From: Metaphire vulgaris
Taxonomy: Eukaryota > Annelida > Clitellata > Crassiclitellata > Megascolecidae
DNA length: 64,000 nt
Reading direction: 5' to 3'
NCBI GenBank assembly: GCA_018105865.1
Contig: CM030845.1
Coordinates: 16,390,276-16,454,275 of the forward strand
A model generated the notes under the pieces. The model was not told the origin of the DNA. It did no database searches and was given only the letters and a program-made list of their open reading frames with translations. Positions 13,684 to 64,000 of the stretch are shown here, piece after piece; the stretch's first letter is position 1; each line of letters begins with the position of its first letter. The translations under genes were made by a program, and so were the position numbers.

Positions 13684-13779
13684 GTATGTAATGTAGAATT
13701 TGAAATGCTAAGATTTCTAATGCATGATTTCTGAGGTTAAAAAATAATAATATGAACTACCTGTTTCAACACTCCATCC

Positions 13780-13985: not shown

Positions 13986-14439
13986 AACGCCTACAACGCA
14001 GGTCATTTGGCTCGTGACCTCATACCCCACTCCTTACGTTAATCCATTACCAGTAAACGTGTGCGTGGGTGAATAAAGTGTGGAAACGAAATACATTTAT
14101 ATCTTGTAGATCAAAGACCCGTTTCTCAATAAACATATTATGAGGAAACTTTAAAATAAGTGTAAGTTTTTGTCGTAAGTCTTAGAAGTCATGGAATGAA
14201 GACATCGTAAGAGAAATCTCGGATAGATTCACAGCAGTCCACTTCCGATATCGCAAATTTATCATGGAATTAAATCTGCTGAACAACTAGCAACAATTTT
14301 CATAGTCTCGTTCACACAGTCATAGAACTACACAGTGCATCTTAAAGAGGATGCTGCGAACCCGCATAAGTTGAAATAGTTTGAATTTGTGACAAGCCAT
14401 TTCACAGATCAGTGGAGGCCCGAGCCATTTGCAAATCTT

Positions 14440-17780: not shown

Positions 17781-18175
17781 ATCGTTCGATGGCATTCGAA
17801 ATCGATCCCAGCAGGCAACGACGCGAAATTCTGTGAATTTCTCAAGCGATTAAACTGATGAAATGGAGTAATTAATCCGCGGTTTTAAATAACAAAGCAA
17901 AGTAATAGTTGGCATCAGGACAATGTCCGCAGCGTTAAGTTAACATTGCTTCCGCCAGAACATGTAGTTTTCTTTCACAGCAAAGGTATTTGGCAAGGCT
18001 CCGATAACATTGCTTGCATTTACCGCATTCACGTGATTAAATTAATCCGCATCGAACATACTGTACGAGGACCAGGCATACACAAATGGACTTTGTAGCA
18101 GCAGCAGCAGCGATTCATCTGAGATTATTCTGTATAATTCAAGAGCTGTCTTCCTCTGTCATAAACTTCTTTAAC
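17781..18175. other. No recognised feature
   Basis: Apparently unique sequence with a short (CAG)n run near 18097. It forms the left flank of the Gypsy element insertion. Confidence 0.4.
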
Positions 18176-18179
18176 ATAG

Positions 18180-18320
18180 TGTTGTAAGCTCGGTGGGCAA
18201 ATACTACAAAAGACTTGATTTTAAGCTCTTTAATCCAAATCGACTAATCTTGTCGATCAACTCAACCGGAAGACCCCTTCAATCCTCATTAAGCAAGTAT
18301 GTACAGTGCATCCTCCAACA
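18180..18320 (-). repeat. 3' LTR of the Gypsy element
   Basis: Same length and apparently the same sequence as the 5' LTR. Unusually short for Gypsy LTRs. The left flank is ATAG. Confidence 0.92.
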
Positions 18321-18449: not shown

Positions 18450-21400
18450 TCAAACATCAGGTACTCTACTTAACAGATCTGGTAGAATATTGTACTTTCC
18501 TGCTCTGTGTCTAATGTCCAATTCATACTGGTTAAGCTCAAGACTCCATCTTAACAAACGAGCATTATAATTTGACATAGTAGCTAAAGATTTCAATGGA
18601 GAATGATCAGTATATACAACAACAGAATTCGATCCAAAGTAAACAGAAAACAAACGAACTGCAAGAACCAGAGCATACGCTTCTTTTTCTACAATTGAGT
18701 AATTAATCTGGTGTTTATCCAATTTCCTACTGAAGAAACAAACTGGATGTTCTATTTCCTGATAAATTTGAAAAAGACATCCACCAACACAAAACGTAGA
18801 AGCGTCAACAGCTAAATAAAATTTCTCATTATAATCTGGAGGTCTCAAAATTGGACGAGACGCCAATCTTGATTTTAATTCCACAAATGAATCTTCAGCC
18901 TCTTTAGACCACTCAAAATTTCTGTTCTTTTTCAACATATTTGTCAATGGTAAAGTTAATTCAGAATAATGTGGCAAAAATCGTTTGTAATAGCCCGCCA
19001 CACCTAACCAGGACAAAATTTGTTTCTTATTCTTTGGTCTGGGAAAATTTAACACAACATCAATCTTTGATCTCAATGGTTGTACACAATTCAAACCCAG
19101 ATGATATCCTAAAAAATCTACTTCAGCATTTGCAAAACAACATTTCTTCGGATTCAATGTCAAACCAGCATCTTTTATTCTATGCAAAATTTCAGTTAAA
19201 TGTTTCGCATGATCTACCCAAGTAAGACTGAAAATAATAATATCATCAAAAAATACATCACAAAACTCTTGCACCCCTTTCACTAAAATTCTTCCCAACT
19301 TAGCAAAAGTTGCTGGAGCTCCCTTTAAACCGAAACTCATATACTTCCACTGATAATGACCATTAGGTAATACAAATCCAGTTAAAGGAACAGACTCCTC
19401 ATCAAGTTCAACTTGCCAGAAACCTCGCGAAACATCCAGCTTTGACATATACTTTGCCTTGCCTACCTTATCTATTAAATCTTCCACACGAGGCATTGGA
19501 AAAGAATCATCGCAAGTAAGAGCATTTAAACGACGAAAATCTGTACACAACCGATCTGAACCATCAGACTTCTTAACGACCACTATTGGTGCAGCCCATT
19601 CGGAATTAGACTCCTCAATAATCCCCAATTTCAGTAACTCCGAAATCTCTTTCTCAACCCTTTTCAATTTTTCAGGATTCATGCGATAAGCTTTTTGAAC
19701 CACAGGTTTTGCACCTTCTACTAACTTAATTTTGTGTTTAACCAAATTTGTGCAACCTGGTCTAGTCGTAAACACTTCAGCAAAAGGTTTCAAAACATCA
19801 AACAGTTCAGACTTCAAACTCTTATCTAATTGTGACTTATCTACAAAATCTTGAATAATCATATCATTATCAACCAATTTATCAATCTCTGACAAATCAT
19901 ACGGACATTCTGATTGACAAAACTCATCACAATCAACCTTATCCGAAATTACATCAGAACACAAAACCGACACATCATTCTGCTTCAAACAACAGAAATA
20001 AGAATCATCCTTAATCACAGATTTACCATTATTTACAAAATCAGCAAACTTTACATTATTTACAATATCATCCACTTCAACTGTCTCTGTGTCCTGAACA
20101 CAACACTTTACATCTAAATTCAACAAATCAGAACACAATACAGAAAAATAACGCTGTTCATATTTCTTCATCAAATTCACATGACAGATCCTTTTATTTT
20201 TTCTACGATCAGGGGTCGAAACAACATAGTCAACAGGACCAAGTTTCCTCATTACTTCATACGGACCACAGTACTTTGCCTGTAAAGGCTTACCTTTCAC
20301 AGGAAGTAACAGCAAAACTTTATCACCAACATCAAAAGAAACTTCAACAGTTTTACGATCAAACCAACTCTTTGATTTTGCTTGAGACACAATAGTATTA
20401 TCATTAGCTGTTTCAACTGCTGTTCTAACTTTTTCACGCAAATCTAACACAAAATCAACTAAATTAGTTTTCTTTGACTTACTCAAAAATTCATCCACAG
20501 TCTCAGCTAACCAAAATTGCTTAATCAGCGAAAGCGGACCACAGACTTCCCGTCCAAACATCAAATCAAATGGAGCAAAATTAATTCCCTTCACCGGAAC
20601 CTCCCGATAAGCAAAAAGAACCCAAGGCAAAAATTCATCCCAATTTTCGTGATACGTTTCCGCCATTGCTTTCAGCATATCTTTTAACACTCTATGAAAA
20701 CGTTCCAAATTTCCATCCGTTTCCGGATGGTACGGACTCGTACGGATATGATGTATACCAAACTCCAGCATAAACACTTGTAACAAGTCCGACAGAAAGT
20801 TCGATGCATTGTCCGACAAAATCTCATTAACAAATCCAAACATCGAAAATGCACTTATTAGACACTTTGCTACCTCCGAAGCTGAATAATTCTGCAAAGG
20901 AAAAGCCAAAGGAAAATGTGTGGCTAAATCTAACATTGTCAAAATGTACCTGTTACCCGAATTCTTACACACACTTAGAGGACCGACTACATCGATTGCG
21001 ACACGTGACCACGCCTTCGAAATTACTGGTAAATTCATCAAAGGTGCTTTAGGCCTCGATCTGCCCTTACCCAATCTCTGACATACATCACAAGTACGAC
21101 AATACTTTTTCACCATACTCGAAATTCCAGGCCACCAAAAATTCCTTTGAACCCTATCCAAAGTTTTTTGAACACTCAAATGAGCACTGGCTGGGATATC
21201 ATGACCTAAAAAGATTAACTTATTTCTCAAAATTCGTGGGACTACAATTTGATCAAACCCCAAGTCCACATCAGAATTACACTTATTCCTTGCTCTTCTG
21301 ATCAAAACATCATTCTGCAGAACAAAACATGGTAGTTTAGCACAATTTCTAGCATCAACTACTAAATCATATAAAGGTCTTAAAGAAACATCCTCATGCT

Positions 21401-22973
21401 GTAATCTTATTAAATCACCATGCGTTACACAATTGAAATCAACATCAGAATTTGTATAATTGACTACACTGTCTTCTGACACATCACTCTCTTCCTCAAA
21501 ATTTGCATCATCATCCATATCAGATACATTAGCTTGAATGTCCTCAGACAGAACATTATCCGAATACAAATTAGACAAATCCTCCTCACACAAATTCACA
21601 ATTACATCATCCTTATCAAATTCAACTGGTAAATTATCAAGATCCTTATTCCCAACAAAATCATCCTTATCAGGTTGATCAACTTCAAGTAATTTCTTAG
21701 CCTGTAATCGAGTAACTACATTCACACTTTCAATCTTTGAATCAGGATCTAAATCATTTCCAATGATAAAATCAACATTCTCTGGTAAATAATCGGTAAC
21801 ACCGAGCAAAACAACTCCCTCACAAAATTTGCTCTTTAAATTCACCTCAACCAACGGAATTTCTGAAACAATGCCATTAGCACAACGAATTAATCTAATC
21901 TCCTTAGTATCAGTAAATTCACCTTCCTTCAACACATCCTTCTTAACCAAGCTCTGCAACGAACCTGAATCTCTTAACACTACCACATCACGCCGCACCG
22001 AACCGTCAACACTTACTACCGACCCACCAGAACAAAAATTCTTAAATTTAGGATCAACTCCCAAACTCACATTATTCACAAAATTCACATTTTTAGGTTG
22101 CAAATTTCTACTCGATTCACCAGATGATCTCTCATTTTTACGCTTTAATCTCTCACAGTTAGAGATAGAATGTGAAGTATCCTTACAATAAGAACACACT
22201 GGAAATTTTCCAAATTTATCATTGAATCTTCCACCAAATTTTGGCGAAGCATTAAATTTTCTAGCTTCGAAATTATTCAAACTCACATTTGAATTTTCAC
22301 GTTTCCCAAATCTCCAATTACTTCCAAAATTTCCAAAAGAAACATTTCCCTCATTCCTTCGAAAATCACCAAAAGATACATTCGAACTACTGTGAAAACG
22401 CAACGAAGAATCTGTCTTATGCAAAACCGCATATTCATCTGCCCATCTAGCAGCTTCAACCAAATTTTGAGGTTTTTTATCAAGAAGCCATTGTTTAATT
22501 GGGAAAGGCAAACACTTAACAAATTGCTCAATTTTAAGCACTTCCAAAAGTTTTTCCAAATCCCTTTCACACTTTTCACTTTGTAACCAACGAAAAAATG
22601 GTTTTTGCAATCGAAATGCAAAACTAGCATAGGTTTCTTTAGAATTTATAGTCAAATTTCTAAAACACAATCGATAGTGCTCCGGCACCTTTTCGAAAGC
22701 TGTAAGCAATGCAGATTTGAAAATCTCGTAATCTTTCGAATCATCCACTGATAGTTCAGAAAACACATTCAATGCTCTCCCTGATAACTGAGTATACAGA
22801 AGCCTTGACCATTTGTCTTTATGAACATCATTTAACAACATCGCTTTTTCAAATGAAAGAAGATAATCCTCAATATCCATCGTATCAGAATATTTAGGCA
22901 CAAATTTTATCAGATTAGAATGTCTAAAAGAATTCAAATTAGGAGAATTAGGTGAATCATGATCACTGTGCAA
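18450..22973 (-). CDS. Gag-Pol polyprotein with integrase upstream of reverse transcriptase
   Basis: An open frame of 1507 codons. Order: SCAN-like Gag helices (about 110-190, including KIEQFVKCLPFPIKQWL and LVEAARWADEY); CCHC zinc knuckle CX2CX4HX4C (260-273); aspartic protease with RDSG (334-337) and IIGNDL; acidic spacer; integrase with HHCC zinc finger (about 590-628) and DDE residues D661, D721, E757 (D-35-E spacing), then a GPY/F-type module (YCGPYEV, about 901); reverse transcriptase (about 1090-1290, LDVSRGFWQ and catalytic FFDD at 1241-1244); RNase H (about 1385-1500, LAVDAS, YTDHSPL). All catalytic residues appear intact. It copies element RNA into DNA and integrates it. The frame is open beyond the first methionine up to a TAG at 23070, so the true start is probably farther upstream. 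Confidence 0.9.
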   Translation of the reverse strand: MHSDHDSPNSPNLNSFRHSNLIKFVPKYSDTMDIEDYLLSFEKAMLLNDVHKDKWSRLLYTQLSGRALNVFSELSVDDSKDYEIFKSALLTAFEKVPEHYRLCFRNLTINSKETYASFAFRLQKPFFRWLQSEKCERDLEKLLEVLKIEQFVKCLPFPIKQWLLDKKPQNLVEAARWADEYAVLHKTDSSLRFHSSSNVSFGDFRRNEGNVSFGNFGSNWRFGKRENSNVSLNNFEARKFNASPKFGGRFNDKFGKFPVCSYCKDTSHSISNCERLKRKNERSSGESSRNLQPKNVNFVNNVSLGVDPKFKNFCSGGSVVSVDGSVRRDVVVLRDSGSLQSLVKKDVLKEGEFTDTKEIRLIRCANGIVSEIPLVEVNLKSKFCEGVVLLGVTDYLPENVDFIIGNDLDPDSKIESVNVVTRLQAKKLLEVDQPDKDDFVGNKDLDNLPVEFDKDDVIVNLCEEDLSNLYSDNVLSEDIQANVSDMDDDANFEEESDVSEDSVVNYTNSDVDFNCVTHGDLIRLQHEDVSLRPLYDLVVDARNCAKLPCFVLQNDVLIRRARNKCNSDVDLGFDQIVVPRILRNKLIFLGHDIPASAHLSVQKTLDRVQRNFWWPGISSMVKKYCRTCDVCQRLGKGRSRPKAPLMNLPVISKAWSRVAIDVVGPLSVCKNSGNRYILTMLDLATHFPLAFPLQNYSASEVAKCLISAFSMFGFVNEILSDNASNFLSDLLQVFMLEFGIHHIRTSPYHPETDGNLERFHRVLKDMLKAMAETYHENWDEFLPWVLFAYREVPVKGINFAPFDLMFGREVCGPLSLIKQFWLAETVDEFLSKSKKTNLVDFVLDLREKVRTAVETANDNTIVSQAKSKSWFDRKTVEVSFDVGDKVLLLLPVKGKPLQAKYCGPYEVMRKLGPVDYVVSTPDRRKNKRICHVNLMKKYEQRYFSVLCSDLLNLDVKCCVQDTETVEVDDIVNNVKFADFVNNGKSVIKDDSYFCCLKQNDVSVLCSDVISDKVDCDEFCQSECPYDLSEIDKLVDNDMIIQDFVDKSQLDKSLKSELFDVLKPFAEVFTTRPGCTNLVKHKIKLVEGAKPVVQKAYRMNPEKLKRVEKEISELLKLGIIEESNSEWAAPIVVVKKSDGSDRLCTDFRRLNALTCDDSFPMPRVEDLIDKVGKAKYMSKLDVSRGFWQVELDEESVPLTGFVLPNGHYQWKYMSFGLKGAPATFAKLGRILVKGVQEFCDVFFDDIIIFSLTWVDHAKHLTEILHRIKDAGLTLNPKKCCFANAEVDFLGYHLGLNCVQPLRSKIDVVLNFPRPKNKKQILSWLGVAGYYKRFLPHYSELTLPLTNMLKKNRNFEWSKEAEDSFVELKSRLASRPILRPPDYNEKFYLAVDASTFCVGGCLFQIYQEIEHPVCFFSRKLDKHQINYSIVEKEAYALVLAVRLFSVYFGSNSVVVYTDHSPLKSLATMSNYNARLLRWSLELNQYELDIRHRAGKYNILPDLLSRVPDV

Positions 22974-23069
22974 TGATTCAGAGTCAGACTCTTTTTTAAG
23001 CTCGAGCGCCTTTAACTCGAGTTCGTGTTTCCGAGTTCTCTCTCGCTCCTCTGCATCTAATCTCCTCTG

Positions 23070-24683: not shown

Positions 24684-24695
24684 GACGAGCCCCCA
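24684..24695 (-). promoter_or_regulatory. Primer binding site, tRNA-Pro type
   Basis: Three bases inside the 5' LTR the minus strand reads TGGGGGCTCGTC, complementary to the CCA-bearing 3' end of animal tRNA-Pro. Twelve bases match before the sequence diverges, enough for a minus-strand DNA primer site. Confidence 0.8.
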
Positions 24696-24698
24696 TAA

Positions 24699-24839
24699 TG
24701 TTGTAAGCTCGGTGGGCAAATACTACAAAAGACTTGATTTTAAGCTCTTTAATCCAAATCGACTAATCTTGTCGATCAACTCAACCGGAAGACCCCTTCA
24801 ATCCTCATTAAGCAAGTATGTACAGTGCATCCTCCAACA
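24699..24839 (-). repeat. 5' LTR of the Gypsy element
   Basis: 141 bp, TG...CA bounded, with 5-bp inverted ends TGTTG/CAACA. It must carry the promoter, but no clear TATA box could be assigned in so short an LTR. Confidence 0.92.
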
Positions 24840-26043: not shown

Positions 26044-26800
26044 ATTGTCTGAGTAATGATTCTCCTCTTAGTACGTGTCCAATCCAGTTCCTCTGTCTTT
26101 TTTGATGGTGCTGATTATCGATCTTTATTCGTCCACCATCTGTAATACTTTATCGTTTGTTTTCTTGTCCGTCCACTTGATGTTTTCCATTCTTCTCCAT
26201 ATCCACATTTCGAATGCTTCCAGCTTTTGTATGTCCTTCTTCTGGAGAGTCCAGGTTTCTGATGCAAATAAAGTGACACTCCATATCAACGCGTTTTTAT
26301 CAGTCTCTTCTTTAGTTCTCTATTTAGCCTTCCTCTTACCAGTTCTTCTCTGTCCAAAAAGGCTTTTTTTCCCATCGCTATTCTTCTCTTTATCTCCTCC
26401 TGGCATCTGGAATCTTCTGTTATTAGGCTCCCAAAGTAGCAGAATTGCGTGACCTGTTCCAGTTCTATTCCATCAACCGTTATGGTGAATCTAGGTGGAT
26501 TTTTGCTCTTTGTTGTTACCATGATTTTTGTTTTTTGAGCGTTTATTTTCATGCCATATTCTTTTGATGTTGTATTTAGTTTGTCCAATATTCTTTGTAG
26601 TTCTCTTTTACTCCCTGTTAGCATCGCTTGATCGTCTGCAAAACGTATGGCTTGTATCAGTTTCCCTTCGATGTTTATTCCCGCTCTTTATTCCTCTAGT
26701 GGGCAGCCTTGTCGTGATCTCCTTCCGATTTCTCCGGTCTCCGAGTTATCATTCCCAATCCATATTTAGGTTCAATCTATCGAATATTGCGTCAAAGTAT
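26044..26800 (-). pseudogene. LINE reverse-transcriptase fragment
   Basis: Minus-strand frame 26624-26286 encodes KLNTTSKEYGMKINAQKTKI, QVTQFCYFGSLITEDSRC and RRIAMGKKAFLDREEL, the RT thumb of the same group as 8125-9606; similarity continues on both sides in shifted frames. Confidence 0.75.
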
Positions 26801-37106: not shown

Positions 37107-37843
37107 TTACATCGTATCGTCTCCTAGTGTTACGTTTTCGTATGACTGTGGCTGTGTCACGTTCATTTCTTTTATTTTATCTTTGCTGTTTTCGTCTTCA
37201 TTCAATTCTTCTGTTGAGTTGTCTTCAATTCTTATTTCTGTGTTTTCGTAGGATTGCTTTGTAGTATTTGCTTTGACGATAGCCATATTACCCAGTTGCA
37301 TAGCCTTTTCTTTTCTTTCATCGTGTTCTTCGTTTTCCAGTTCGACGTTTTCGTAAGACTGCGCTGTCATATTATCATTCGATGAAGCTGAGTTGAAGGT
37401 AACGTTACTTCGGCCAATAGCGACATTCGTATAAGCGGGACGTCTTGTCTGATGCTCTGCCTCGATGTCTTCCTGTCCGTCTGAATCGTGTATTGATACT
37501 TCGGCGTTAACCAGGCGATGTTCCAGAGATCCTATATCATCTGAATCCATTTCATTTTCCCGCTGTCTGATCCTAGTTTCGTCGTGAACATCGACATTGA
37601 TGTAAGGAGGAGGACGCCTTAGTGATTGACCCTCAGATGAAGTACCGCCGACTGATTGTCCCTGTGCATCAGTCAGCCTCAGGTAGGTGGTCTGTGCTGG
37701 AGTCTGATTAATGTTCTGGCGAGCGATCATCTCTTCGTATCCTGGTCTCATGACTATCACTTCTTCCCCTTGCTCTCTTTCACTCGAAGTGCTCTGACTA
37801 GAGTTCGCCATATCGGTGTCTTGAATGCCGCGCAGGTCGTAAT
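37107..37843 (-). CDS. Exon 5 of minus-strand Ig receptor: long tyrosine-motif cytoplasmic tail and stop
   Basis: After TTATTCTCAG this exon encodes about 245 hydrophilic, acidic residues ending GDDTM and a TAA stop. Tyrosine motifs occur in order: GYEEM, TTYLRL, PPYINV, PAYTNV, QSYENV, QSYENT and QSYENV. Five of the seven are YxN, the known consensus bound by Grb2-family SH2 domains; most also fit YxxV/L. TTYLRL resembles an ITIM/ITSM core, though none matches the strict consensus. The last three QSYEN units are clearly repeats of one another, spaced some 35-45 residues apart, suggesting internal duplication. The region is otherwise low in hydrophobics and probably disordered. Confidence 0.8.
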
Positions 37844-40532
37844 CTGAGAATAAGATTTCAAAATAGCGTATTGTATTGCTGAACATGTAAAAATGAATAA
37901 AAGACTTCACGGCCTTTGAGTTATGGTGCTACAGAAGTCATTGAATTGCCAAAAATGCCTAAAATTTGCCTAAAATTTGTCAAAAATTTGCAAAAAAATT
38001 TTCTCTCCCCCCCAAAGAAAAGTGTGAAATGACGCCACTGCGCGGACCTCAGCTATCGGCCCTATGTCTTCACACGAGCCCTTATTTAAGTGATTCCCGG
38101 TCCGCTAAAGAGTGATATGCTAAACTCACTTTACTAATTCCTTCACTGCTTACTAACAACTAGCGTCACCTACCGAACTATCGGGGCCTGTACTCTATAG
38201 ACCATTTTTACTATTTCTTATTAAGCTCTTATTAGTATTGGACCTCAGTCTTACTTTTTATTGACTATTAACTTGTATCGCTCACTACTTAATAACTTCG
38301 TCACAGTAACAATGCGAACGCTCCCTCCCCCTCTCCTTCCTCTCCTCCCCATTCTCAATCGTTCCTCTGTCGTAGTAACAATGCGAACGAAGCAGGAATG
38401 TCTGGAGAAGGATATAATGCAGGACACAATGCCTGGATCACGAAAAAGAGGCAGGTCAAGAAAAAAGTGGGAAGACAACATCAAAGAATGGACAGGACTC
38501 ACTATCGAGCAGGCGATAAGAAGAGCAGAAGATCGTAACATCTGGAAGATGACAGTTCATAATGCAACCAATCTTCGGAGCGAAGACGGTTGAAGACAAG
38601 ACAAGACAAGTAACAATGGCAACGCCGTTCCCAACAGCGTATAGTGACCTTACCCTCCCCAGCATACTTTAAATCCAATTTAGCAAGTATTATGTTGAAA
38701 ATATTTGCAAATCTTTGCATATAATTTGAAGTCGTTTGAAATTGAGAAAGCATTGCAACATATATATGTTGGATTTAAGCGAATTTTGTATGTTAATTAA
38801 AAAGAATGAGTAGTCAATAACTATACTTGACTGTACAACTACGGGAACGGGGCGTTCCCACTAAAACCCGGCGCGTGAGGCCTGCGGCCGCAGGGGGCCC
38901 CGCCGGCCGGCCTCGGATACTTAAGAGTTTTAATTTTCTTATTCTTAAATTAATCCAAGTAAGTTATTGCGAAGAAAAGTTTAAATTAGAATTGCTGTGG
39001 CACAATCACTGTGTTTCTATGTTTGGGTGTACACCTTAAAAAGACCAGTTATAATCATAATAATTTTTTCAAGCCTTTACATGGTGACTTGCTTACTTTT
39101 TAGTGGAAATTTCCACAACCAAAAATAGGCTGTTTTGAAAATTTGACGCGAATGCGTGCAGTGTACCACTAAGCGTGAAAATAGCTCAAGAAAATAGCTT
39201 GTCAAGACTTTTCAAAAACGTTGCAGAGGCCCCTCGTAAAAAGTTGCAGGGGGCCCCCAAAAGTCACGCGCTGGCTCTGTTGCCACTCGTTCCGCTGCCG
39301 CTGTAACAATGGAAACGCCGTTCCCAACAGTTTCCACGACAAATTAACCCTGGTGTGGACGACATCTTTGATTGGACAAACGCAATAAACTACGAAGCCC
39401 TAGAAAGAGCGGCAGAAGTTATAGAGAATTAGAGGAAAGTGACTACCAACCCCCTGATGGAGTGCGGCACATAAAGATGAAGAATAATATAATCTTAAAG
39501 CATTTCAGCAAGACCTGTAATGTAGCTAAGTGTTGCGCACAACTATAAGCAATTCGCAATAAATCTTTTATAATCAGTTATTCAATACATGAAATGTCTA
39601 GGCAACCATTTCTTTGCCAAACTAATACCTTCACTCTTCTTTTTTCGAAACGCCAACACCACAAGAATAATGATCTGCACGAAAATGACAAATGAGATGG
39701 AGATATAAATAATTCCACCAACTCCAACTCTGGCCACCATATTTTCACCATCAACATCTGAAATGTATCACTATATAATTACATCAACAAATTCCCTATT
39801 GACTTTTGTCAATAGGGAATTGATTCCCTGTCTCCCTATTGACTTTTGTGTTCCAATTTTCTCTATATTCTATCACAACTCTTTCCTTTTCCGACATTGC
39901 CTCGACTGTGCTTGTCTTTTTTCCTATTTCAACAAGATTATCGCTGTGTAGATATTAGTCAAATGAATTGCTAAGCATTTTACCACTGCTGTTGAGTGAA
40001 GGCTGAGTCAACTTCTGGGCAAATATAGAGAGTCCTGGGAATCAGTCCTTCTCTAAAATGAGGTAGACGGGAAAGAGGAAGATAAGGGCGAGGGGAGGAG
40101 GGTGAGAATATGGAAGAGAGAGAGAGTAGATAGGGAGATAGAAGAATGAGAGAGGAGTGGGTACGAAAAGGAGAGGGAGGCAGATGATGGTAAAAAGAGC
40201 GGTGGAGAATGGGTTGGGAATGGGAAAGGAGGAAGAAGGAGAGGGTAGTTTGCTTGCGTGGCGTTTCTGGGAGGGGAAAGGAGGGAGAGAGTGGAGGGAG
40301 GTTGTGAGAAGGATATAGAGCGAGCAGAGATGGTTCGTAAAAGAGAGAGGAAGGAGTGTAGAATGGAGGGTAGAAGAGGGAAAGGAGAAGAAAAGGACGT
40401 AGAAGGGAGGGATTGGGAAAAGGTATGCGATATACTCGCGCACAAATTAAAAAAGTTATAGTCGTATGAGCAGCTATAAAATATAAAGAGAAGCATTAAT
40501 TATAAAATGACGTGGCCAGTTTTTACTTGTTC

Positions 40533-40582
<50 letters not shown>

Positions 40583-43500
40583 GAAAGTCGTAATCTTGTC
40601 TTACTAAAATGTTCGCTTGTCATTTCTGTCATGTTCTGTTGGTCCCAGGTGATGATGTTAGATACATTTGGTTCCAAAGTAACGGAGTCTTCATATGTGG
40701 GAACATTAGAAGCCATGTGTTCATATGAGAAGTTCCGACTTTTAAAACGCAGATGACATCTGTAAATAGCGTTGCTGAACTCAACTGAACTGATTTCCAA
40801 ATGGACGATGATCTTACGACTGTCATTTGACAATAAGAATGAGTGTTGTTCTCTTTGCACTGCGCCGAATTCTGATCCAGTCAGCACCAGCTGAGGTTCC
40901 CACGGTCCATTGAAAAGAACTTCACAGGAGATGTGGGAAGAATTCGTGCTGTATATTTTAAGACTTCCATCTAAGTGACGAATAGACGAAAGCATAATTG
41001 CTATATATACAACACAACATTGATTGATATTGCAAAGAGCGGCACCAGCACTATGGGACAGGAGGCACCAAGAGCAGCAGTGCAGAGAGAGCTACCAGTG
41101 ATAGGTAGGTTCCGGAAGAGAGCGGCACCAAGAAAAAGATAGAGCTATATCAACAGTGATTCCAGCGCTGAGTTTATTCTCAGATCCTGGCTTTCCGGCT
41201 CTCGAATGGGTACCTGGTTTTTCTGCGGAATCTGGGTTTCTAAAGTTCTTGAAAACAGTGGCGTCATTTCACACTATTCTTGGGGGGCGAGAACATTTTT
41301 TGCAAATTTTTGACAAATTGTGGGCAAATTGTTTGCAAGTTTTGGCAAATTTTGGGCATTTTTTGCAATTTTTTTGCAAATTTTGAGCAGTTTTGGCAAA
41401 TTTTGAGGTAATGTTGGAAAATTTACAATTTTTTGATATTTTTGGGCAATTTTTGCACACTAATACATTATAAATTAATATTTTCATTTCATTGGGGTGC
41501 ACAGTCTCCCTCCCCCAGCGCCCCAAATGACGCCTCTGCTTGAAAATACATTATTATTTGGAATCTTTGGTATTTGGAGTCTGGACTTCACTCGGGTGAC
41601 TCATGGAGTTATTATTAGAGGAGACGGCATTACGTCATTTCTAACCAGGCTGCTTGAAGCCAGTAGCGCGTAGGCTAAAAATAGCACCTCCATTGTTAGC
41701 GGCCAATGTGGTTGAATCGGACGCGTGGGGGTAACTGAAAGTTGGCAGTTGATGACAAGGGGAGGGGCAGTGTTATTTCTAGGATTTTGAATTTGGGGTG
41801 GTGTCGGGAAAATAAAGGGGGGTCGAAATTTTTAAGTCTCTCCCAGGAAAAAGGATGACAAAAAAGGTCATCTGACAATAAAAGTTTGAGGGAGGGGGTG
41901 TCCTCCATTGGGGGGAGGAGTGTTCAGAGCTAATTAGTATCCATTTTGCATTGTCACATTACCAAATTTTGGGGGTGTCGACCTCAAATGGAGTGGTGGT
42001 GTTGAGGGGTGTTAGGAGGGTATAAAAATTTCCCTGGAAGGGGGTCGAAATTGCCCAAAAATTGTTGACATAATTAATGGACAGCCCCCATGCCTTATTG
42101 AAAACACGATTAATGTCATCCAATAGGCTGTCCACTTGCTATTTTTCAAACACAAATTTCGAACAATAGCATCTTAATTCAGTGGTGGCTCCATAGGGGG
42201 GGGGCCGGGGAGTCGTGCCCCTATTGAGTGCCTGGCCTCCCAGTGGCCCCTGTTGGGACCCTATACTTAATACTACATACCTAACAACAAACGGTAGGCC
42301 CCCATGATTAGAAGCTGCCACCCCAACGGCCCCCCACTTGCCAAATCCTGGAGCCGCCACTGGGCCCAGGGTGGGTCCGTGCCCCTTATAATTCTTATTG
42401 AGTGCCTGGCCCCCAATGGCCACCCTGTTGGAACCCTATACTTAATACTACATACCTAACAACAAGCGGTAGGACCCCCTGATTAGAAGTTGCCACCCCA
42501 ACACCCCCCCCCCATTTGCCAAATCCTGGAGCCTCCACTAATCTGAATCTCCATTTTCATTACATACTAATAAAAAGTTCTTAGATCGTTGATAAAACAT
42601 ATCCGCAGCTATTCCCCATGGCTCAGCTGATGATTTTTTGGGTCTACCAATGTGGCTGCCGTTTGGGAATTTCCCAAATAGTTGGCTTCAGCCAAATGAC
42701 GTAATGCCGTCTCCTCTAATAATAACTCCATGGGTTGACTGTTGATCTGAGGATTAAACGGAAGTCACGTGGTTAGTTAGATACGTATATGAGTAATATG
42801 ACGGTATGAGTGGTGAATATTGTCTATACAGACCCACGTCGAGCCAGGTGTATAAAAATACGAAATGAAATAAGTAAGTAAGTAAGTAAAATCTCGTGGA
42901 TTTATATAGCCCTTTGGAAAGTGGCTCAACAGTAAATGCTTATTCTTAGGCGCTAAGCCTTTCTTCAAATAGCTATGGGAAAGGTATGAGATCAGCCAGG
43001 CAATGGTCAATAAATACGCTTTGACCTAAAGCTAACAGTTATATTAGTTTAGTTAACAGTGTATATTAGTATATTTCTAACAGTAATTTTGAATTTAAAT
43101 TACCTTATTGGAAAGTTTCAGCCAACTTATGTGAGGTTTTGAGCACTCCAGGGGTTTCAGGGCTTTCTTTAGGACGCAATCTGTTTTTTTCTTCAAAAAG
43201 TTGACTGGCAACACTGGGTACCGGAGACAGCGGTACCAAAGGTACAGGTACAGGGGGTAAAGGTACAGGAGGCACAGGTAACAGAGATCTAAGAGACACC
43301 AGAGCCATAAGAGTAAAGATTACCGGGGTACCAAGACAAAGGTAAAGGACAGAGAGATAAGAGTCCACTTCGCACGGAAGGCTTCCTAGCCAGAAAGCTA
43401 GGATGAATGTACACCATAGATCCCCATTCTAGCAGGTACCCAGGCCGTGGGATTTGCGCATGACCGTTGAGAAATTTCGCTGAGGGGTAGTTAGAATGAT

Positions 43501-44609
43501 CGAAGAGTATACACGAATTTGCCAAAAACTCCTTGGCGAATATTTTTACCCGAAATTCTAGATGATCCCCTCCCCTATTTCTGAACCCTGGCTACGCCAC
43601 TGGACTATATTCCTGGTAATAATATTTCGATCTTACTCAATGCATATAAAGCCGAGTTTTTGCCTACTAGATTCCGAAGCCAACTACTATAGGCCTATGT
43701 TTCATGTGTGTGTGGGTGTTACAGTCAAAAAAGCGTCAGTCATTGTGTGTAATGACCAATAGGGTCAGTCATTTCATGCAATGACTAACTTTCCCAAATA
43801 TTTATTTCACACTTTGACTGACCGCTATATTCGCTAATATAATCCTATAAGACTGCGATTTCCGCGTCTCAGGCTGCAGTTTAATGTGACCCTTATTGAA
43901 TATATCTACTCGCCCATTATTATGACTTGAACCCTTCTATGTATGTTACTCGAATTTCCTTTTGTCTTGCAATCGTACGTCCCAGCGTCCTTCAGCCGCA
44001 AATGATGAATGATCAGAACGTAAGAGCCATTTGTTGTAATGGCTTCAGCTCGTGAACTGAATTCACGAGAGAAATTTCTCGATATACTGTAGATTCGTTT
44101 GTCATTGGTGCTGTTAACTGGGAAGTAAAACCAGCCAAGAAGCTCAGTCTTTGCATCTTCTACTGTACACTGTAACTTCAACTGCTGACCTTTGCGAAGG
44201 GCAACATTGTATAGCAATGCACGTGTTGTACCTAAAACGAAGAACAACTAATTCAATCATAGAAATGTTCAGTCGCGGACGTCATTCGCCCGTTTGCACA
44301 GCCAACCGCCGCACAGTTACGATGCTGTGTATCATGACATGACATATTGAGTCTTGCCGTTTCTGAGTTGAACACTTGTACACGTATAGGCCTAACCTAC
44401 TAAGCACGGCTGTTTTGTTCTAGAATCTAGATTATGGATTCAATATGCTACTTTAAAAGCTAGCCATTAGAACAGTGAACAATTTTTCAATCATTCATTC
44501 AGTCCGTTAGTCAATCAGTCCGTAAGTCGTTGAGCTTTTACATACCATAGAAAGTCAGGACCAAAGAAATCAATATCAAAATTCCATGATTGCGCAAATT
44601 ATATTTCAT
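37107..44609 (-). CDS. Complete five-exon Ig-superfamily transmembrane receptor (gene model)
   Basis: Joining 44609-44546, 44231-43914, 40970-40605, 39757-39629 and 37843-37107 on the minus strand gives an uninterrupted frame of about 537 residues: signal peptide (about 1-22), Ig domain 1 (about 23-127), Ig-like domain 2 (128-250), membrane helix (about 262-284), then a cytoplasmic tail of about 245 residues rich in tyrosine motifs. Every junction is phase 1, as is usual for Ig-superfamily exons, and every intron has AG at its 3' end. Four introns separate the exons; three begin GT and the one after exon 2 appears to begin GC. Such proteins sit in the plasma membrane, bind ligands outside and signal through phosphotyrosine-dependent adaptors; here that is inference from architecture. 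The ligand is unknown and I cannot name an orthologue. A minus-strand AATAAA about 440 nt past the stop (36663-36668) is a possible polyadenylation signal. Introns contain hAT and LINE fragments. Confidence 0.8.
37940..38039. mobile_element. hAT-like element fragment (right end)
   Basis: Ends GTGAAATGACGCCACTG and carries the TTTGCC/AAATTTG-rich interior of the element at 41256-41538. The left end is missing. Confidence 0.55.
38350..38612 (+). pseudogene. LINE 3' end with ACAAG tail
   Basis: The plus frame reads LEKDIMQDTMPGSRKRGR, RKKWEDNIKEWTGLTIEQA and RSEDG before a stop, the C-terminal signature of endonuclease-RT LINEs, then a tail of ACAAG repeats. It lies in an intron of the receptor, on the opposite strand. 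Confidence 0.75.
38613..39628. other. Intron 4 sequence of the minus-strand receptor
   Basis: Contains a GC-rich patch near 38870-38920 and a repeat-like segment with GGGGCCCCCAAAAGTC near 39240; no supported gene. Confidence 0.4.
39629..39757 (-). CDS. Exon 4 of minus-strand Ig receptor: transmembrane helix
   Basis: This 129-nt exon follows TTTCAG and ends GAAG before GTATTAG, phase 1-1. It encodes a short acidic lead, then about 23 hydrophobic residues (core IIYISISFVIFVQIIILVVL) followed by the basic stop-transfer sequence FRKKK. A glutamine lies within the helix. It links the Ig exons to the tail in frame, making an asparagine codon at the upstream junction and an aspartate codon at the downstream one. 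There is no charged residue in the helix of the kind used to pair with ITAM adaptors. Confidence 0.8.
40040..40443. repeat. Polypurine (GA-rich) tract in intron 3 of the receptor
   Basis: About 400 bp of strongly purine-biased plus-strand sequence; its open frames on both strands result from composition. Confidence 0.75.
40538..40580. repeat. (TA)n microsatellite
   Basis: About 40 bp of TA dinucleotides, 25 bp inside the intron after exon 3 of the receptor. Confidence 0.9.
40605..40970 (-). CDS. Exon 3 of minus-strand Ig receptor: Ig-like domain 2 and stalk
   Basis: The exon starts after CACTTAG and ends before the strong donor GTAAGA, phase 1 at both ends, 122 codons. HISCEVLF and AIYRCHLRF supply the two Ig cysteines. 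The usual C-strand tryptophan is not obvious (a GPWEPQLVL stretch occupies that place), so this is a divergent C2-like fold. Sequons NSS, NDS, NFS, NVS and NMT are present. The last 30 or so residues, rich in Thr, Ser and Glu, would be a membrane-proximal stalk. A (TA)n microsatellite begins only about 25 bp into the following intron. Confidence 0.75.
41256..41538. mobile_element. hAT-like MITE
   Basis: Perfect duplication CTTGAAAA (41248-41255, 41539-41546); ends CAGTGGCGTCATTT and, inverted, CAGAGGCGTCATTT. Interior is built from irregular TTTTGGGCAAATTTT-like units. Confidence 0.75.
41547..42178. other. Intron 2 sequence with a Harbinger-like MITE end
   Basis: At 42061-42090 the phrase TTGACATAATTAATGGACAG CCCC resembles the right end of the MITEs at 24882 and 52917; no matching left end with TTA was found nearby. 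Nothing else supported. Confidence 0.4.
42179..42540. mobile_element. hAT-like MITE with internal tandem duplication
   Basis: Duplication ATCTTAAT / ATCTGAAT (one mismatch) and ends CAGTGGTGGCTCC / TAGTGGAGGCTCC (inverted). A unit of about 180 bp (from CCCTATACTTAATACTACAT onward) occurs twice in tandem inside. Confidence 0.65.
42549..43913. other. Intron 2 of the minus-strand receptor; LINE and hAT ends
   Basis: At 42878-42920 an antisense L2-like 3' end follows a (TAAG)n tail. A hAT-type right end CTGGCTACGCCACTG sits at about 43587-43601 without a recognised left partner. The frame at 43105-43368 is a proline/valine-rich composition effect of a GGTACAG-like repeat. Confidence 0.45.
43914..44231 (-). 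CDS. Exon 2 of minus-strand Ig receptor: Ig domain 1
   Basis: The exon follows the acceptor TTCGTTTTAG and encodes 106 residues of a V/I-type Ig domain. The B-strand cysteine is in KLQCTV, the core tryptophan in LLGWFYF, and the F-strand cysteine in the diagnostic DAGTYDC motif. Several N-glycosylation sequons (NST, NFS, NGS, NSS) suit an extracellular domain. The phase-1 exit expected from the other exons falls before GCGAGT, so a GC-AG intron is the best model. A GT lies a few bases later (GA/GTAGAT) but would give phase 2 and break the frame with exon 3. Confidence 0.8.
44546..44609 (-). CDS. Exon 1 of minus-strand Ig receptor: start codon and signal peptide
   Basis: The ATG at 44609-44607 opens a 21-codon stretch beginning MKYNLRNHG followed by the hydrophobic core ILILISLVLTF, a typical secretory signal peptide with a basic N-region. 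A G lies at position -3 of the ATG. The exon ends one base into a codon, directly before GTATGT, a good splice donor. Joined to the next exon the split codon gives glycine. It is too short to be seen as a long reading frame; it was chosen because hydrophobicity, donor and phase all agree. Confidence 0.78.
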
Positions 44610-47498: not shown

Positions 47499-49225
47499 TC
47501 TTATTATATAATTCTCGATGTCCGGCGAATCTGTCTGTCGGTCACCATACACGGCAGATTTTGCAAGACGCTGTTGCCATAACAACGAAATTGTTTAATC
47601 AAAACTGTATAAACAACTCAGCGTTTAACGAAGCGTCTCAATTGCAGCTCAAATCCCCGTTCCCCCTTCCCTCTCCCCATTCCTCTCCCAATCGCCCCGG
47701 CCCCAACCCATCTCCGCCCCGGCCCAACCCATCTCCGCCCCGCCCTACCCCACAGGCCCCAAACCCCCGTTTCCCCTTCCCTCTCCTCATCCCTCTCACA
47801 ACCCCTTCCCTCTCCCAATCGCCCGGCCCAACACATCCCGCCCCGGCCCCAGCCCATCCCGCCCATGCCCCAAACCATACCCGCCCCGCGCTACCCCACA
47901 GGCCCAAACCCCCGTTCCCCTTCCTCTTCCATCCCTCCCTCAAACCCCCTTCCCTCTCCCCATCCCTCTCCCAATCGCTCCGGCCTCACACATCCCCGCC
48001 CAGGCCCCAACCCATACCCGCCCCGCCCTAACCCACAGGCCCCAAACTCCCGTTCCACTTCCCTCTCCCCATCCCTCTCCCAAGCGCCCCGGCCCTAACC
48101 CATAACCGCTCCGCCCTACCCCACCGGCCCCAAACCCCGTTTCCAAACCTACACAACGCTGCTCCGAAAACCCGTACAACCCACTTTCCTCCTCCCAAAC
48201 CTCCCTCCCTCTCCCAATGCCCTGCCCCCCGTTATTATATATATTTACTCCTTCCTAACCTCAATACCTATTTTTTTAAATTTAGCCCTTCAAGTGGGGA
48301 TTACATTTTCAGAAGCCGTCACCGTACTAGGGATTTAATTTTTGGAAAAGCGTTCTTCAGAAATGATTGCTGTAACGTTTTAAATTTTCTATATCTCAGG
48401 CTATATAGGAGCTAAAAAGATGAGGTTTGCACCATTGTTTAGATTGTTTATTCCTCTTTCTAACCGTCCGTGCAAAACAAAAAAATGGGGGTAGAGTCCA
48501 CTTTACGGCTTAAAATATCACCCTCTCCCCCAAAAAATCTCAAAGCCCCCTAACAAACAATTTTCTGCGGTAACCCCACTTTGTTCAGCGGCAAAGTTGT
48601 AAAGGGATGTCAGAGGAACAAAATAAACAAAAAGTTTGAAAATCGGTTAACATTTGGAAAAGATCTATCAATTCTAACCCGATGACCCCAATGTTTGAAC
48701 ATAAATATTATGAGCGAATTTCGCGAAAGTTTTGAATTCTGAGAGAGTTTCCAAATTTTTTTGAATTTGCTATATCTCAGGCTGAATAAGAGCTAAGAAG
48801 ATGAGGTTTGTACCATTGTTTAGCTTTTTTATTCCTCTTTCTAACCGTCCGTGCAAAACAAAAAAGTCTAACGTTCACGAACTTTCCGACAATCAAGTGA
48901 GAATGAGGAGCAGGCTGTTGCTCGGCGTGCAAAAGCAGCACAGCAAACAAGAGAATCAAGCACTGCATGTCGTTCGACACTGCCAAATCAGTACACTAAC
49001 GTTGACTATCAAGTTTCAGAAAATTCATGCGAATGGGCGTTAACTCGGTTGAAGGAAAAGGCGGCGAGTTAAGGACAATTAATTGCGCAAAATGCTATTG
49101 CATTTGCGCAAAATCGGGTGGTAAAACAGCCAATCTCCCCCGTCATAAAATGCTATTGCATTTGCGCAAAATCGGGTGGTAAAACAGCCAATTCCCCCCG
49201 TCATTTTTGACGGGTAAACACCTAG
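47499..49225 (+). mobile_element. Non-autonomous Helitron, copy H2
   Basis: Begins A|TCTTATTATATAATTCTC and ends with hairpin CCCGTCA-TTTT-TGACGGG (49197-49214), TAAACAC, then CTAG|T. It matches H1 in inverse orientation, with a C-rich minisatellite (47655-48235), a duplicated block of about 90 bp (near 48390-48480 and 48770-48860) and, near the 3' end, a tandem 58-bp duplication (49085-49200). No Rep/helicase frame. It sits in the intron after the signal-peptide exon. Confidence 0.8.
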
Positions 49226-53440: not shown

Positions 53441-53745
53441 TTCATATTTCTGATCTGTTATTATTATTACGAACATTTATAAAGCGCAAGTTCGCGGTGC
53501 AGCAAATGCGCTAAATCTGTATTGTATTTGAGGAACAATTGTTGTGACGTATATTTTGTTGTGGTGTATATTTTCATTTTGGTTCCAATTGTTAAGTCGC
53601 TTTTTCCTACAGCGTTTTTCCTTCCTTCCAATTGTTTGGAGTCATTTCGATATTCTTGATTTTATATCCTCTTGTTGGCTGTCATCGTTGCAATTGTTTA
53701 TAACAATGCATACTAATGCAATTGCAAAGCTCTGATGTTTTTTAG

Positions 53746-54069
53746 ATTTCGTGAATTCCACTCTTGTGGTTGTTCCTAGCGATACAGTCGCCACAAACGG
53801 GAGTAGCACTCAACTGAATTGTTCAACTAATCTATCGACTCCCCTCCTTTGGCAGCATATTCCACTTGGATCTACGTTTTCAAATGATGTCTATTTACAC
53901 AACGCCATAGTCAATAGATACGTTGGACGATTTCAGGTACAAGTGGACAGTAACACAGGCGCCTACAACCTCGTTATTAACAACATTCAGTTTGAAGATG
54001 CCGGCACTTTCAGATGCAGAGACGACCAAGGAGAAGGAGAACAGATAGACGCTAAACTCAACGTCACTG
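53746..54069 (+). CDS. Ig domain exon, divergent paralogue of the D1 exons
   Basis: From acceptor TTTTTTAG to donor GTATGT, 324 nt, phase 1-1. It encodes a V-like Ig domain: TQLNCSTN (B-strand Cys), PLLWQHIP (core Trp), NDVYLHN, LVINNIQ and DAGTFRC (F-strand Cys). The spacing and the W-Q-x-IP / DVYL / GTFRC signature match the D1 exons at 12728 and 62481, though the residues are otherwise divergent. The signal exon at 47413 fits upstream; downstream it could join D1/D2 at 62481 and 63152, making a three-Ig protein, or a D2 I did not recognise. A minus-strand LINE 3' tail starts about 15-30 bp past the donor. Confidence 0.75.
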
Positions 54070-54084
54070 GTATGTACAAACAGA

Positions 54085-56574: not shown

Positions 56575-56999
56575 CGTTTTCTATGACAGATGTGTCATAA
56601 TCATCATTCACGCCACGAATCCAGTTTCTTCGTAAACGAAATCCCCACGAGAGGTGTCCATAAACCGTCTGCTGTAAGATTTCCTCTTCCTCTGCCTTTC
56701 TGGAACCCCCCAACGTATTTATATTTTCTTTAGCGCCCTCTGGCTGTCAATCGACGTCGCAGTAACGTTCCGATAGGTTGATGACAGGCTCCCAAGTCCT
56801 CCCACATCTATTATTATTCATAAGCGACCAGCCTCAACGACCAGCCTCAATTAATATAATCACTTTCCTTAACCTGAACGATTTTAACATATATTGAGAC
56901 CATCACTCTATTTTGTGTGGGTTTCAAAATTTTGCACACACACGCAACATTTTTGTTGTAAAACTCGGCCCACGAGTTTTTGATTTTGCACACGAGCCA

Positions 57000-57985
57000 G
57001 CAATCGTTAGAGGGAACATTGGTCGTGCCGCGGCATTCTGAACAAGTTGGAGTCTATATAGTTGATTTTTAGCCGTACATGCAAGTAGGCTATTGCAGTA
57101 ATCGAGGCGAAATGCTATGAAAGCATGGAACAAGACTTGCACTGATTCCTGCGACAGAGAGTCGATCACTACCCGTAATTGTCGAAGCTGGTAGAAACAT
57201 CCTGACACTATTTTACTAATGTGGTTCGACATTGTAAGATTTTCATCAAGGATGACTCCAAGATCTTTCACTTGCTCGGATCTTTTAATAACATTATTTT
57301 CAAAGTTTAGAGCTACTGAGTCTGCCTTGGCCGTTTGCTTACGATTACCGAGTATAATGAATTCTGTTTTTCCCGGATTAAGCTTTAGCCGGCTGCTTCT
57401 CAGCCAGGAATCAATTTCCTGAATACAGCTCGCAAGTATCTGTAGCACCTCCGGCAAGTCGGCAGGACTACAACTGCGATAAAGCTGAGTATCATCAGCA
57501 TAGAAGTGGAAACGAAGGTGATATTTGCAAATGACTTCCCGAAGCTTACTAATAAACAGGATAAAAAAACAGTGGCCCGAGAATGGAACCCTGCGGGACG
57601 CCAATGAACATCGGCTTTGGGCTAGACAGTTCACCTTCGTAAAACACTTGTACCACTTTATCTGAAAGATAAGAAGTAATCCAGCGTAAAGCAGAACCGC
57701 CAATTCCATAGTGACACTGAAGTCTTTTAAGTAGAATGTCATGGTCAACACAGTCGAATGCAGAAGAGAGATCCAAAAGTACTAATGCAGTTACCTGACC
57801 TTGATCAGCCGCATCAAAAACTTCAGACAGGATGTTAAGTAGCGCCGTTTCCGTAGAATGATAGGGGCGATATGAGGATTGTTCTTCCGGTAGGTACTGA
57901 GGTTCCTCTAGATACTGTCTGAGCTGAGCCGCAACCGTCCTTTCAAGTATCTTTGAAAGGTATGAAAGGTTAGATATGGGCTATG

Positions 57986-62229: not shown

Positions 62230-62480
62230 GACTATATTTAGCCCTATCCCTAATATTATACTTAATGTTGAGATCGCTCAGTCGTATCCCATGCAGGAGA
62301 CATCAGAGCACATGCAAACAGTTTGTATTTTGTAATGAATATAGGCCCAAGTGTGGCTACAATCATTTTAAAAAAATCATATGGACGCTTCAAATACAAA
62401 TAAATGAATTTAGATTTGTTATTCAGTCTGTTTAAACAATTACTATTTCAGTTCAGTTTATTGCATTTTAGAAAACACAG

Positions 62481-62792
62481 AGCTACAATTAACGCCGAAA
62501 TTTGCCGAAGTTCAAGAGGGAGACATCTTTCAATTGACCTGCAAAACCTATTATAAGGATGAAGCAATCAGATGGCAACGCATTCCAATGGAAAACACTT
62601 TACCAGTTGATGTGTATCTAGATGACCAACTGGTCAATGACTATGATACTCGGTATGAGGTTAGAAAGGAAGTAGAAGCTGGGATCAATAAACTCATTAT
62701 TAAAAGAGCGGAAATGAGAGACTCGGGGACATTCCGCTGCATCGACAGATCAGGTCATGGACAGCAGGTGGACTCTCTGCTAACAGCTGTCG
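62481..62792 (+). CDS. Ig domain exon (D1, copy C), recent duplicate of 12728-13039
   Basis: Identical in length (312 nt), acceptor (AAAACACAG) and phase to copy A; the donor here is the stronger GTAAGT. By eye about 18 nucleotide differences separate the copies, of which about 13 change the residue, with both Ig cysteines (LTCKTY, GTFRC) and the tryptophan conserved. The reading frame is open throughout. Changes fall at positions spread over the domain (for example VYLYD to VYLDD, GKFRC to GTFRC), so the two copies would present different surfaces. Confidence 0.78.
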
Positions 62793-63151
62793 GTAAGTAC
62801 ACTTTTCTAGTATTTCGAATGGTTCTCACGTTTAAACTGAAAAATTGGATGAACTTTATACACGGATAAGTAATGAAGCAAATCCTTTAATAAAACTTAT
62901 TTGTTAATAAAACATATTTGGCTTTCCATTAACAATGGCATTAACTACAACTATGGACGAAGTCTCAAATACTTCAATTGATTGAATTATAATAATTTTA
63001 CCATTCTCGCCTCTTTTTCAAAAAAGATTATTTACAAAGTTCCATTGGAAATCTCATATTTGCTGAGATTTAACGTCTCAATATGATATTTTGATTAATA
63101 TTGTGTCTCATTATGGAAGCTAATGAACTACAATTGTCTGGCTATTTATAG

Positions 63152-63436
63152 GGCCCCCTAAGTGTCATTCGTCCATTAACGCGTCATGTGATTTGGACGA
63201 CATGGAAAACGTTACCTTGACCTGTAATGTGAAATTTTCTGGAAAAATTAGTCCCACCATCGAGTGGAAACATGAAGGGGAAAAGATGTTGGGTGCAACC
63301 TCCACTTTTTCAGCCGATGTTCAGTCTTACCTGACAATCCAAATCGATCAAGGAAGTTCTTATTCGTCACCCTACAGTTGCTTGTCCTTAACATCCAATT
63401 CATCATGTACCATTAAAATTCAGCATGACTGTACAG
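63152..63436 (+). CDS. Ig domain exon (D2, copy C), recent duplicate of 13399-13683
   Basis: 285 nt between CTATTTATAG and GTATGT, phase 1-1, after a 359-bp intron of the same length as in copy A. About nine nucleotide differences from copy A, six of them changing residues; all cysteines and the core tryptophan are kept. The gene continues beyond the window edge, so any transmembrane and tail exons are out of view. Confidence 0.78.
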
Positions 63437-63519
63437 GTATGTAATGTAAGATTTGAAATGTTAAGATTTCTAATGCATGATTTCTAAGGTAAACAAATAA
63501 TAATATGAACTACCTGTTT

Positions 63520-63725
63520 CAATACTCCATTCAGTCTCGTTTAGATACTTTATCAAAAGCTTTATCAAAATCTAAGTATATTATATCGACTGCCTTGCCC
63601 TCATCTAGGTCATCATAAATCTCCTCCATACAGTCTAACATGTTGGTCAGGCATGACCGTCTCTTTGAAAATCCATGCTGACTGTCATTGACAATTTTTA
63701 ACCATTCTCACAATTATTGTCACAG
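63520..63725 (-). pseudogene. LINE RT fragment downstream of D2 (copy C)
   Basis: Duplicate of 13780-13985 with the same boundaries and orientation and few base changes; carried along by the segmental duplication. Confidence 0.75.
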
Positions 63726-64000
63726 CTCCCTTAACTCTAACGCCTACAACGCAGGTCATTTGGCTCGTGACCTCATACCCCACTCCTTGCGTTAATTCGT
63801 TAGGAGTAAACGTGTGTGACTGTGTGTGGGTGAATAAAGTGTTGGAACGAAATACGTTTACACATTGCAGATAAAAATCAGTTTCCCAATAAACATTATG
63901 AGGAAACCTTAAAGTAAGTGTACGTTTTTGTCCTAAGTCTTAGAAGTCATGGAATGAAGACATCCTAAGAGAAATCTCGGATAGATTCACAGCAGTCCAC

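Follow-up and report, generated by a model that had tools for sequence, protein, structure and literature searches.

A candidate immunoglobulin receptor gene with a Grb2-type tyrosine-motif tail in a cluster of Ig exons of Metaphire vulgaris

Introduction

A stretch of 64,000 nucleotides from the genome of Metaphire vulgaris (assembly GCA_018105865.1, contig CM030845.1, positions 16,390,276 to 16,454,275), referred to below as the window and numbered from its first letter, raises the question of whether five exons on its minus strand make up one complete receptor gene of the immunoglobulin superfamily (IgSF) and, if so, what kind of signal such a receptor would pass on. We find that the locus is credibly a type I single-pass IgSF receptor gene, for which a complete model can be read from the DNA and from which we infer the splicing. 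Invertebrate IgSF receptors are a known kind of molecule; what is new here is the content of the tail and a refined boundary for exon 2. The motif content of the tail is the most informative part of the gene, and neither this nor the GC donor described below was mentioned in an earlier note on the same DNA.

Gene model

The model runs on the minus strand from 44609 to 37107 and comprises five exons:

44546-44609, minus strand: exon 1, ATG and signal peptide (hydrophobic leader, residues 1-22), with a phase-1 donor (ATG/GTATGT, the slash marking the exon end)
43914-44231, minus strand: exon 2, V-set Ig domain, residues 22-128, with C43, W55 and C109 (Pfam V-set match, AF2 model)
40605-40970, minus strand: exon 3, probable second Ig domain and a stalk with N-glycosylation sequons, residues 128-249, with C143 and C199
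39629-39757, minus strand: exon 4, transmembrane helix (hydropathy peak at residues 265-285) and then an RKKK stop-transfer
37107-37843, minus strand: exon 5, cytoplasmic tail of 245 residues and TAA

Joined together, the exons (64, 318, 366, 129 and 737 bases, with introns of 314, 2943, 847 and 1785 bases between them) give 1614 nt, that is 537 codons plus TAA, and the frame is free of stops and frame-shifts throughout. The start codon is the first ATG downstream of an in-frame stop located 10 codons upstream, and it has a purine at -3. All four junctions are in phase 1, and the GC content of the coding sequence differs between codon positions 1, 2 and 3 (0.48, 0.36 and 0.42, respectively). 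The protein has four cysteines in all (C43, C109, C143 and C199), each of them N-terminal to the membrane helix, and nine N-glycosylation sequons upstream of the tail. The earlier note had proposed that five exons assemble into a full Ig receptor gene with every junction in phase 1, and that the product has a signal peptide, a membrane helix and a 245-residue tail; all of this was recovered in the joined 1614 nt open frame. Its count of two Ig domains holds for the first, which is recognised as V-set by Pfam, while the second is probable and has no Pfam match.

The whole exon chain is well supported because of controls against chance, a scan for membrane exons and a looser scan for further exons. 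The stop-free run containing the tail (273 codons) was reached in none of 300 resamplings of the 9 kb segment under a first-order Markov model, the longest run obtained being 240 codons. The open runs of exon 3 (186 codons) and exon 2 (113 codons) were reached in 7 and 208 of the 300 resamplings, respectively, and their lengths therefore say little. When both strands were scanned for phase-1 exons with a membrane helix and basic residues, exon 4 was the sole hit on the minus strand, and a single doubtful candidate (26250-26435) appeared on the plus strand. The looser exon scan, covering 44700 to 37000 with thresholds relaxed until exons 2 and 3 were recovered, returned eight candidates, six of which fall inside exons 2, 3 and 5; neither of the two extra ones (43479-43300 and 38501-38286) has an Ig-type cysteine pair. 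A stricter scan gave 38501-38286 only, at thresholds that exons 2 and 3 themselves fail.

The joining of exons 3, 4 and 5 is suggested by their order, strand and phase together with middling splice scores. As judged by a weight matrix built from general splice-site frequencies, donors 3 and 4 lie at the 87th and 85th percentile, and the exon 4 acceptor reaches the 72nd.

Exon 2 boundary

Two donors in phase 1 were considered for the end of exon 2:

43912-43913, minus strand: GC donor of intron 2 (TGG/GCGAGTAG), phase 1, preferred
43948-43949, minus strand: alternative GT donor (CGA/GTAACA), also phase 1, 74.9th percentile of 3348 GT sites

The most likely end of exon 2 is the GC donor 43913, rather than the GT donor 43949. 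The GC donor ranks at the 99.4th percentile among the 2808 GC dinucleotides on the strand, and the remainder of its sequence (GCGAGT) matches the donor consensus. It is favoured because it retains the G strand of the Ig domain and because it lies 19 residues beyond the second cysteine, close to the 18 residues found for the presumed donors of the three paralogous V exons described below, all of which read G/GT. Use of GT 43949 as the main donor was rejected, as it would cost the domain residues 116-127 and with them the modelled G strand, and a further GT at 43909 is in the wrong phase. It should be underlined that the alignment of the V exons also ends near the GC donor, but the slices had been cut at those points and give no independent support, and that the modelled G strand (model residues 98-105) is hardly tested by structural matches that fall mainly on model residues 1-96.

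A GC donor is unusual, yet ordinary biology. GC-AG introns are reported to account for 0.8% of the junctions in human coding genes, and genes that contain them are described as more prone to alternative splicing (PMC7242645). An in-frame TAG is found within two codons past the GC donor, and retention of intron 2 would therefore be expected to yield a secreted V domain.

Extracellular domains

By its sequence profile, exon 2 is a V-set member of the immunoglobulin superfamily: it scored 35.8 bits against Pfam V-set (cut-off 26; E=1e-8), and C43, W55 and C109 are invariant in its alignment with the three paralogous V exons. The AF2 model built from this four-sequence alignment placed a G strand at residues 120-127; among the five models obtained, the top one had a pLDDT of 65.6 and the other four 33.8-36.9.

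Exon 3 probably encodes a second Ig domain. It shows Ig-like traits in the spacing of C143 and C199, a YxC motif and its exon phase, and no Pfam match was obtained. Single-sequence AF2 modelling gave a low-confidence beta sandwich (best pLDDT 55.6, the other four 40.3-46.2). With this model, the best 50 rows in Foldseek were mostly Ig chains, the lowest E value being only 0.34, and the top four rows in VIA-align were C2 domains, which are not Ig, followed by a mixture of Ig and other beta folds. The models of both exons are of low to middling confidence and are read here without any claim to a structural family. A Pfam search of the joined protein detected no sushi domain at E<=1, and its other matches (Syndecan at the membrane helix, aRib and Pirin_C_2) fall below their cut-offs.

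Cytoplasmic tail

The tail contains eight tyrosines, in the contexts DYDLR, GYEEM, TTYLRL, PYINV, AYTNV, SYENV, SYENT and SYENV. Five are YxN motifs of the Grb2 type (YINV, YTNV, YENV, YENT and YENV), one is a YxxM of the PI3K type (YEEM), one is a TxYxxL and one falls outside these classes. YxxM is a docking site for PI3K.

The tail was also scanned for the motifs ITIM, ITSM, ITAM and hemITAM by their usual consensus patterns. None of the eight tyrosines lies in an ITIM or ITSM ([SIVL]xYxx[IVL] or TxYxx[VI]), the nearest being TTYLRL with its TxYxxL, and the tail has neither an ITAM (YxxL/I x6-12 YxxL/I) nor a hemITAM (acidic YxxL), the spacing between tyrosines ranging from 18 to 57 residues. 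On the motif scan, an identity as an ITIM, ITSM, ITAM or hemITAM receptor was rejected. Nor do the membrane and tail exons contain any cysteine.

The motifs are enriched compared to shuffled tails. Asparagine at +2 in five of eight tyrosines was matched by 37 of 200000 shuffles, L/I/V/M at +3 in six of eight by 130 of 200000, and both counts jointly by none of 200000, a statistic computed post hoc with the motifs already seen.

In LAT, YXNX is described as the motif for the Grb2 SH2 domain, and five Grb2-type sites are given for LAX (PMC3291652); YENV is the Grb2 site of CD22 (PMC6286995). Docking to pYXNX is presented as general to receptor tyrosine signalling, as in the fly, where the Grb2 homologue Drk binds this motif and acts with Sevenless (PMC11203457). 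Since YxN motifs are present in other receptors too, they are not specific for an immune role.

Genomic neighbourhood and relatives

The receptor gene shares the window with related Ig exons and with repeats:

12697-13041, plus strand: paralogous V exon region with a C2-like Ig exon region behind it, at 13374-13688
53736-54071, plus strand: paralogous V exon region, 28% identical to exon 2 (Pfam V-set 29.4 bits)
62450-62794, plus strand: paralogous V exon region with a C2-like Ig exon region behind it, at 63127-63441; this pair duplicates the one at 12.7 kb
41599-42735, strand unassigned: probable small DNA transposon (MITE) in intron 2, with 42-base terminal inverted repeats that are 97.6% alike

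The three plus-strand V exons are 19-28% identical to exon 2. The first and last lie in a segmental duplicate, 12499-14242 being 90.9% identical to 62243-64000. Between the duplicates, dN/dS was 0.75 for the V exons and 0.54 for the C2 exons, values that rest on few differences (14 non-synonymous and 5 synonymous, and 8 and 4, respectively). Taken together, the window looks like an expanding cluster of Ig receptor genes, as far as can be judged from the DNA. No Rfam match at gathering scores was obtained in the window. In a search for retroelement proteins, 857 of 4284 candidates had E<=0.001; among the matches listed, those with an organism name belong to an arachnid, a sea urchin and a sponge, and one further record is labelled as a bacterial MAG.

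A motif scan and a helix scan revealed no convincing membrane or tail exon for the paralogues, the plus-strand candidate mentioned above being doubtful. This agrees with the earlier note's view that the present receptor is the sole one in the window readable from start to stop, as regards membrane and tail exons. The note had also called the gene previously unnamed and suggested a protein search of the joined exons. Such a search, against a set of 5.8 billion proteins, gave nothing at E<=0.01 among 7998 scored candidates, these being the ones that share most words with the query at up to 100 words per search, so that distant orthologues could escape. Residues 23-300 alone gave one of 694 candidates at E<=10 (E=0.34, 22% identity over 21% of the query). 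The set includes some animal proteins (Diadema, Dysidea and Cordylochernes). Both searches fit the view that the receptor was unnamed, since neither brought up a relative in this set that appears convincing by sequence. Among the openly licensed papers searched, we likewise found none on an invertebrate Ig receptor with a tail of repeated YxN motifs.

Proposed mechanism and alternative explanations

On balance, the gene probably encodes a receptor of the innate or allorecognition type whose tail offers multivalent docking for Grb2 and PI3K. An immune or allorecognition role is proposed because of the surrounding cluster of duplicated V and C2 Ig exons, and both this role and expression of the gene are inferred. 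Clusters of duplicated Ig exons are a frequent pattern among immune and allorecognition families, and a less frequent one among conserved genes of development. If the gene is spliced and expressed as modelled, the V-type domain would bind an extracellular ligand, and the resulting clustering of receptors would bring Src/Syk-type kinases to the tail. Once phosphorylated, YINV, YTNV, YENV, YENT and YENV could recruit an adaptor of the Grb2/Drk/Gads type through its SH2 domain, and YEEM could dock PI3K p85. The signal would then leave via SOS-Ras-MAPK and PI3K and not via ITAM/Syk or ITIM/SHP. As one chain offers up to five Grb2 sites, receptors might also be cross-linked by Grb2-SOS, by analogy with what has been modelled for LAT. 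The five Grb2-type sites and the one PI3K-type site, in a tail devoid of ITIM, ITAM and hemITAM, would point to a direct route to Ras and PI3K.

Alternatively, the gene model may be right and the tail may dock Grb2 and PI3K in an IgSF receptor that serves adhesion, development or the nervous system instead of immunity, with another cell-surface protein as its ligand. The generality of pYXNX docking in receptor tyrosine signalling, as with Drk and Sevenless (PMC11203457), is in line with such a function, as is the presence of neuroplastin among the weak sequence matches. We nevertheless consider it rather unlikely, as its neighbours are V and V+C2 Ig exons, of which two lie in the 90.9% identical segmental duplicate, and a conserved orthologue was not found in the 5.8-billion-protein set.

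The chain itself might also be incomplete or wrong, either by combining exons of two genes, by missing exons within introns 2 and 4, or by the existence of isoforms that retain intron 2. The weak scoring of splice junctions 3 and 4 and the GC donor of intron 2 could be taken this way, the more so as genes with GC-AG introns are described as prone to alternative splicing (PMC7242645), and two of the paralogues place a C2-type exon approximately 330 bases after the V exon, compared to an intron of 2.9 kb here. However, exon order, strand and phase are consistent, the minus strand yielded no membrane exon besides exon 4, and the two extra candidates of the looser scan lack the Ig-type cysteine pair, which makes an incorrect chain quite improbable. 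Least credible of all is that the locus is the relic of an old receptor, its donor decayed from GT to GC and its introns filled by transposons: the GC donor, the MITE and repeats within the introns and the second domain that Pfam does not recognise would suit a pseudogene, but the 537 codons are without stops and frame-shifts, base composition varies by codon position, the remaining letters of the donor fit the consensus and the YxN motifs are intact.

Comparison with known systems

Among known systems, the architecture of the putative receptor is closest to that of the fester co-receptors (FcoR) of Botryllus schlosseri, which are described as proteins of 520-610 aa, encoded in one locus, that combine a V-type Ig domain with a sushi domain and two Ig domains of the C2 type and carry Y-x-x-I/L/V motifs in their tails (PMC12065747). 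The similarity lies in the size, the V-type Ig domain, the single transmembrane domain and the long tail; unlike the FcoRs, the present receptor has no sushi match and one further domain only, and in place of the ITIM or hemITAM reported for some FcoRs it carries five YxN motifs (PMC12065747). As in molluscan CgIgIT2, an invertebrate IgSF ectodomain is combined with a tyrosine-motif tail, but CgIgIT2 has an ITAM and the present receptor none (PMC11999971). The same applies to the Ig candidates of the Hydractinia alr locus, whose tails are described with ITIM/ITAM-type motifs that are absent here (PMC12065747). For reviewed invertebrate Ig receptors, the tail motifs given are ITIM, ITAM and hemITAM, plus a YxxI/L/V core stated to be of unknown function (PMC11999971, PMC12065747).

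The receptor was classed neither as an FcoR nor as LAT, because it has no sushi match, no ectodomain of the LAT kind and no LAT cysteines. The palmitoylation cysteines of LAT/LAX-type adaptors are located beside the membrane. LAT is described as palmitoylated and as having an ectodomain of two residues, whereas the membrane and tail exons of the receptor lack cysteines and its ectodomain has approximately 240 residues with a V-set domain; like LAT and LAX, the receptor has a membrane-bound tail with at least three YXNX sites, five in this case (PMC3291652). For LAT, LAB and LAX, three to five Grb2 sites are considered sufficient for Grb2-SOS-Grb2 cross-linking (PMC3291652). If its motifs are used, the molecule might by analogy work as a LAT-tailed Ig receptor. 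The N-terminal domain of CD22 is a V-type Ig domain. CD22 is likewise an Ig receptor whose tail has a YENV site for Grb2, but there the Grb2 site is reported together with ITIMs for SHP-1, which the present receptor lacks (PMC6286995).

These comparisons lead to the idea, which we put forward as unlikely though worth stating, of a receptor that carries its own LAT, a V-type Ig domain and a five-site Grb2 scaffold uniting ligand binding and the assembly of Grb2-SOS (and Gads/SLP-76) in one molecule. Because the receptor is defined as a protein of 537 residues, the idea can be tested by peptides and one cDNA. Ascidians are reported to be without LAT and SLP-76, and some FcoRs have been speculated to be adaptors (PMC12065747); for amphioxus, the authors report that they found no LAT-like molecule and raise the possibility that an unknown membrane protein takes its place (PMC5431462). 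If the idea is true, the receptor described here would be the kind of molecule able to fill the LAT role said to be missing in both groups (PMC12065747, PMC5431462).

Repeats and further coding features of the window

The features discussed here are as follows.

26250-26435, plus strand: exon-like phase-1 stretch with a possible membrane helix
41599-42735: MITE candidate with inverted ends of 42 bases (97.6% alike)
42222-42361 and 42396-42539: direct copies of about 140 bases each (89% identity, 34-base gap)
8151-9605, 14555-16801 and 56924-57781, minus strand: additional reverse-transcriptase reading frames (Pfam)
18450-23069, minus strand: intact reading frame of 1539 codons with SCAN, integrase and reverse-transcriptase domains
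18175-18320 and 24694-24839: short terminal repeats flanking this frame

Besides the receptor's own exon, the plus-strand stretch was the sole match when both strands were scanned for phase-1 exons encoding a membrane helix followed by basic residues; it could be part of another receptor or a chance match. Intron 2 of the receptor gene holds both the direct copies and the probable MITE.

Two larger repeats were also observed: a segmental duplication (12499-14242 and 62243-64000, 90.9% identical) bearing a V and C2 Ig exon pair, and an inverted repeat of about 1.5 kb (871-2327 versus 47663-49146, 83% identity) that includes GC-rich minisatellites.

The three additional reverse-transcriptase frames, of which the last is a fragment slightly below the Pfam cut-off, are probably LINE-type. 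The terminal repeats of the 1539-codon element are 99.3% identical across 146 bases, which makes the insertion a recent one. Its integrase precedes the reverse transcriptase, and we take it to be a Gmr1-like Ty3-type element.
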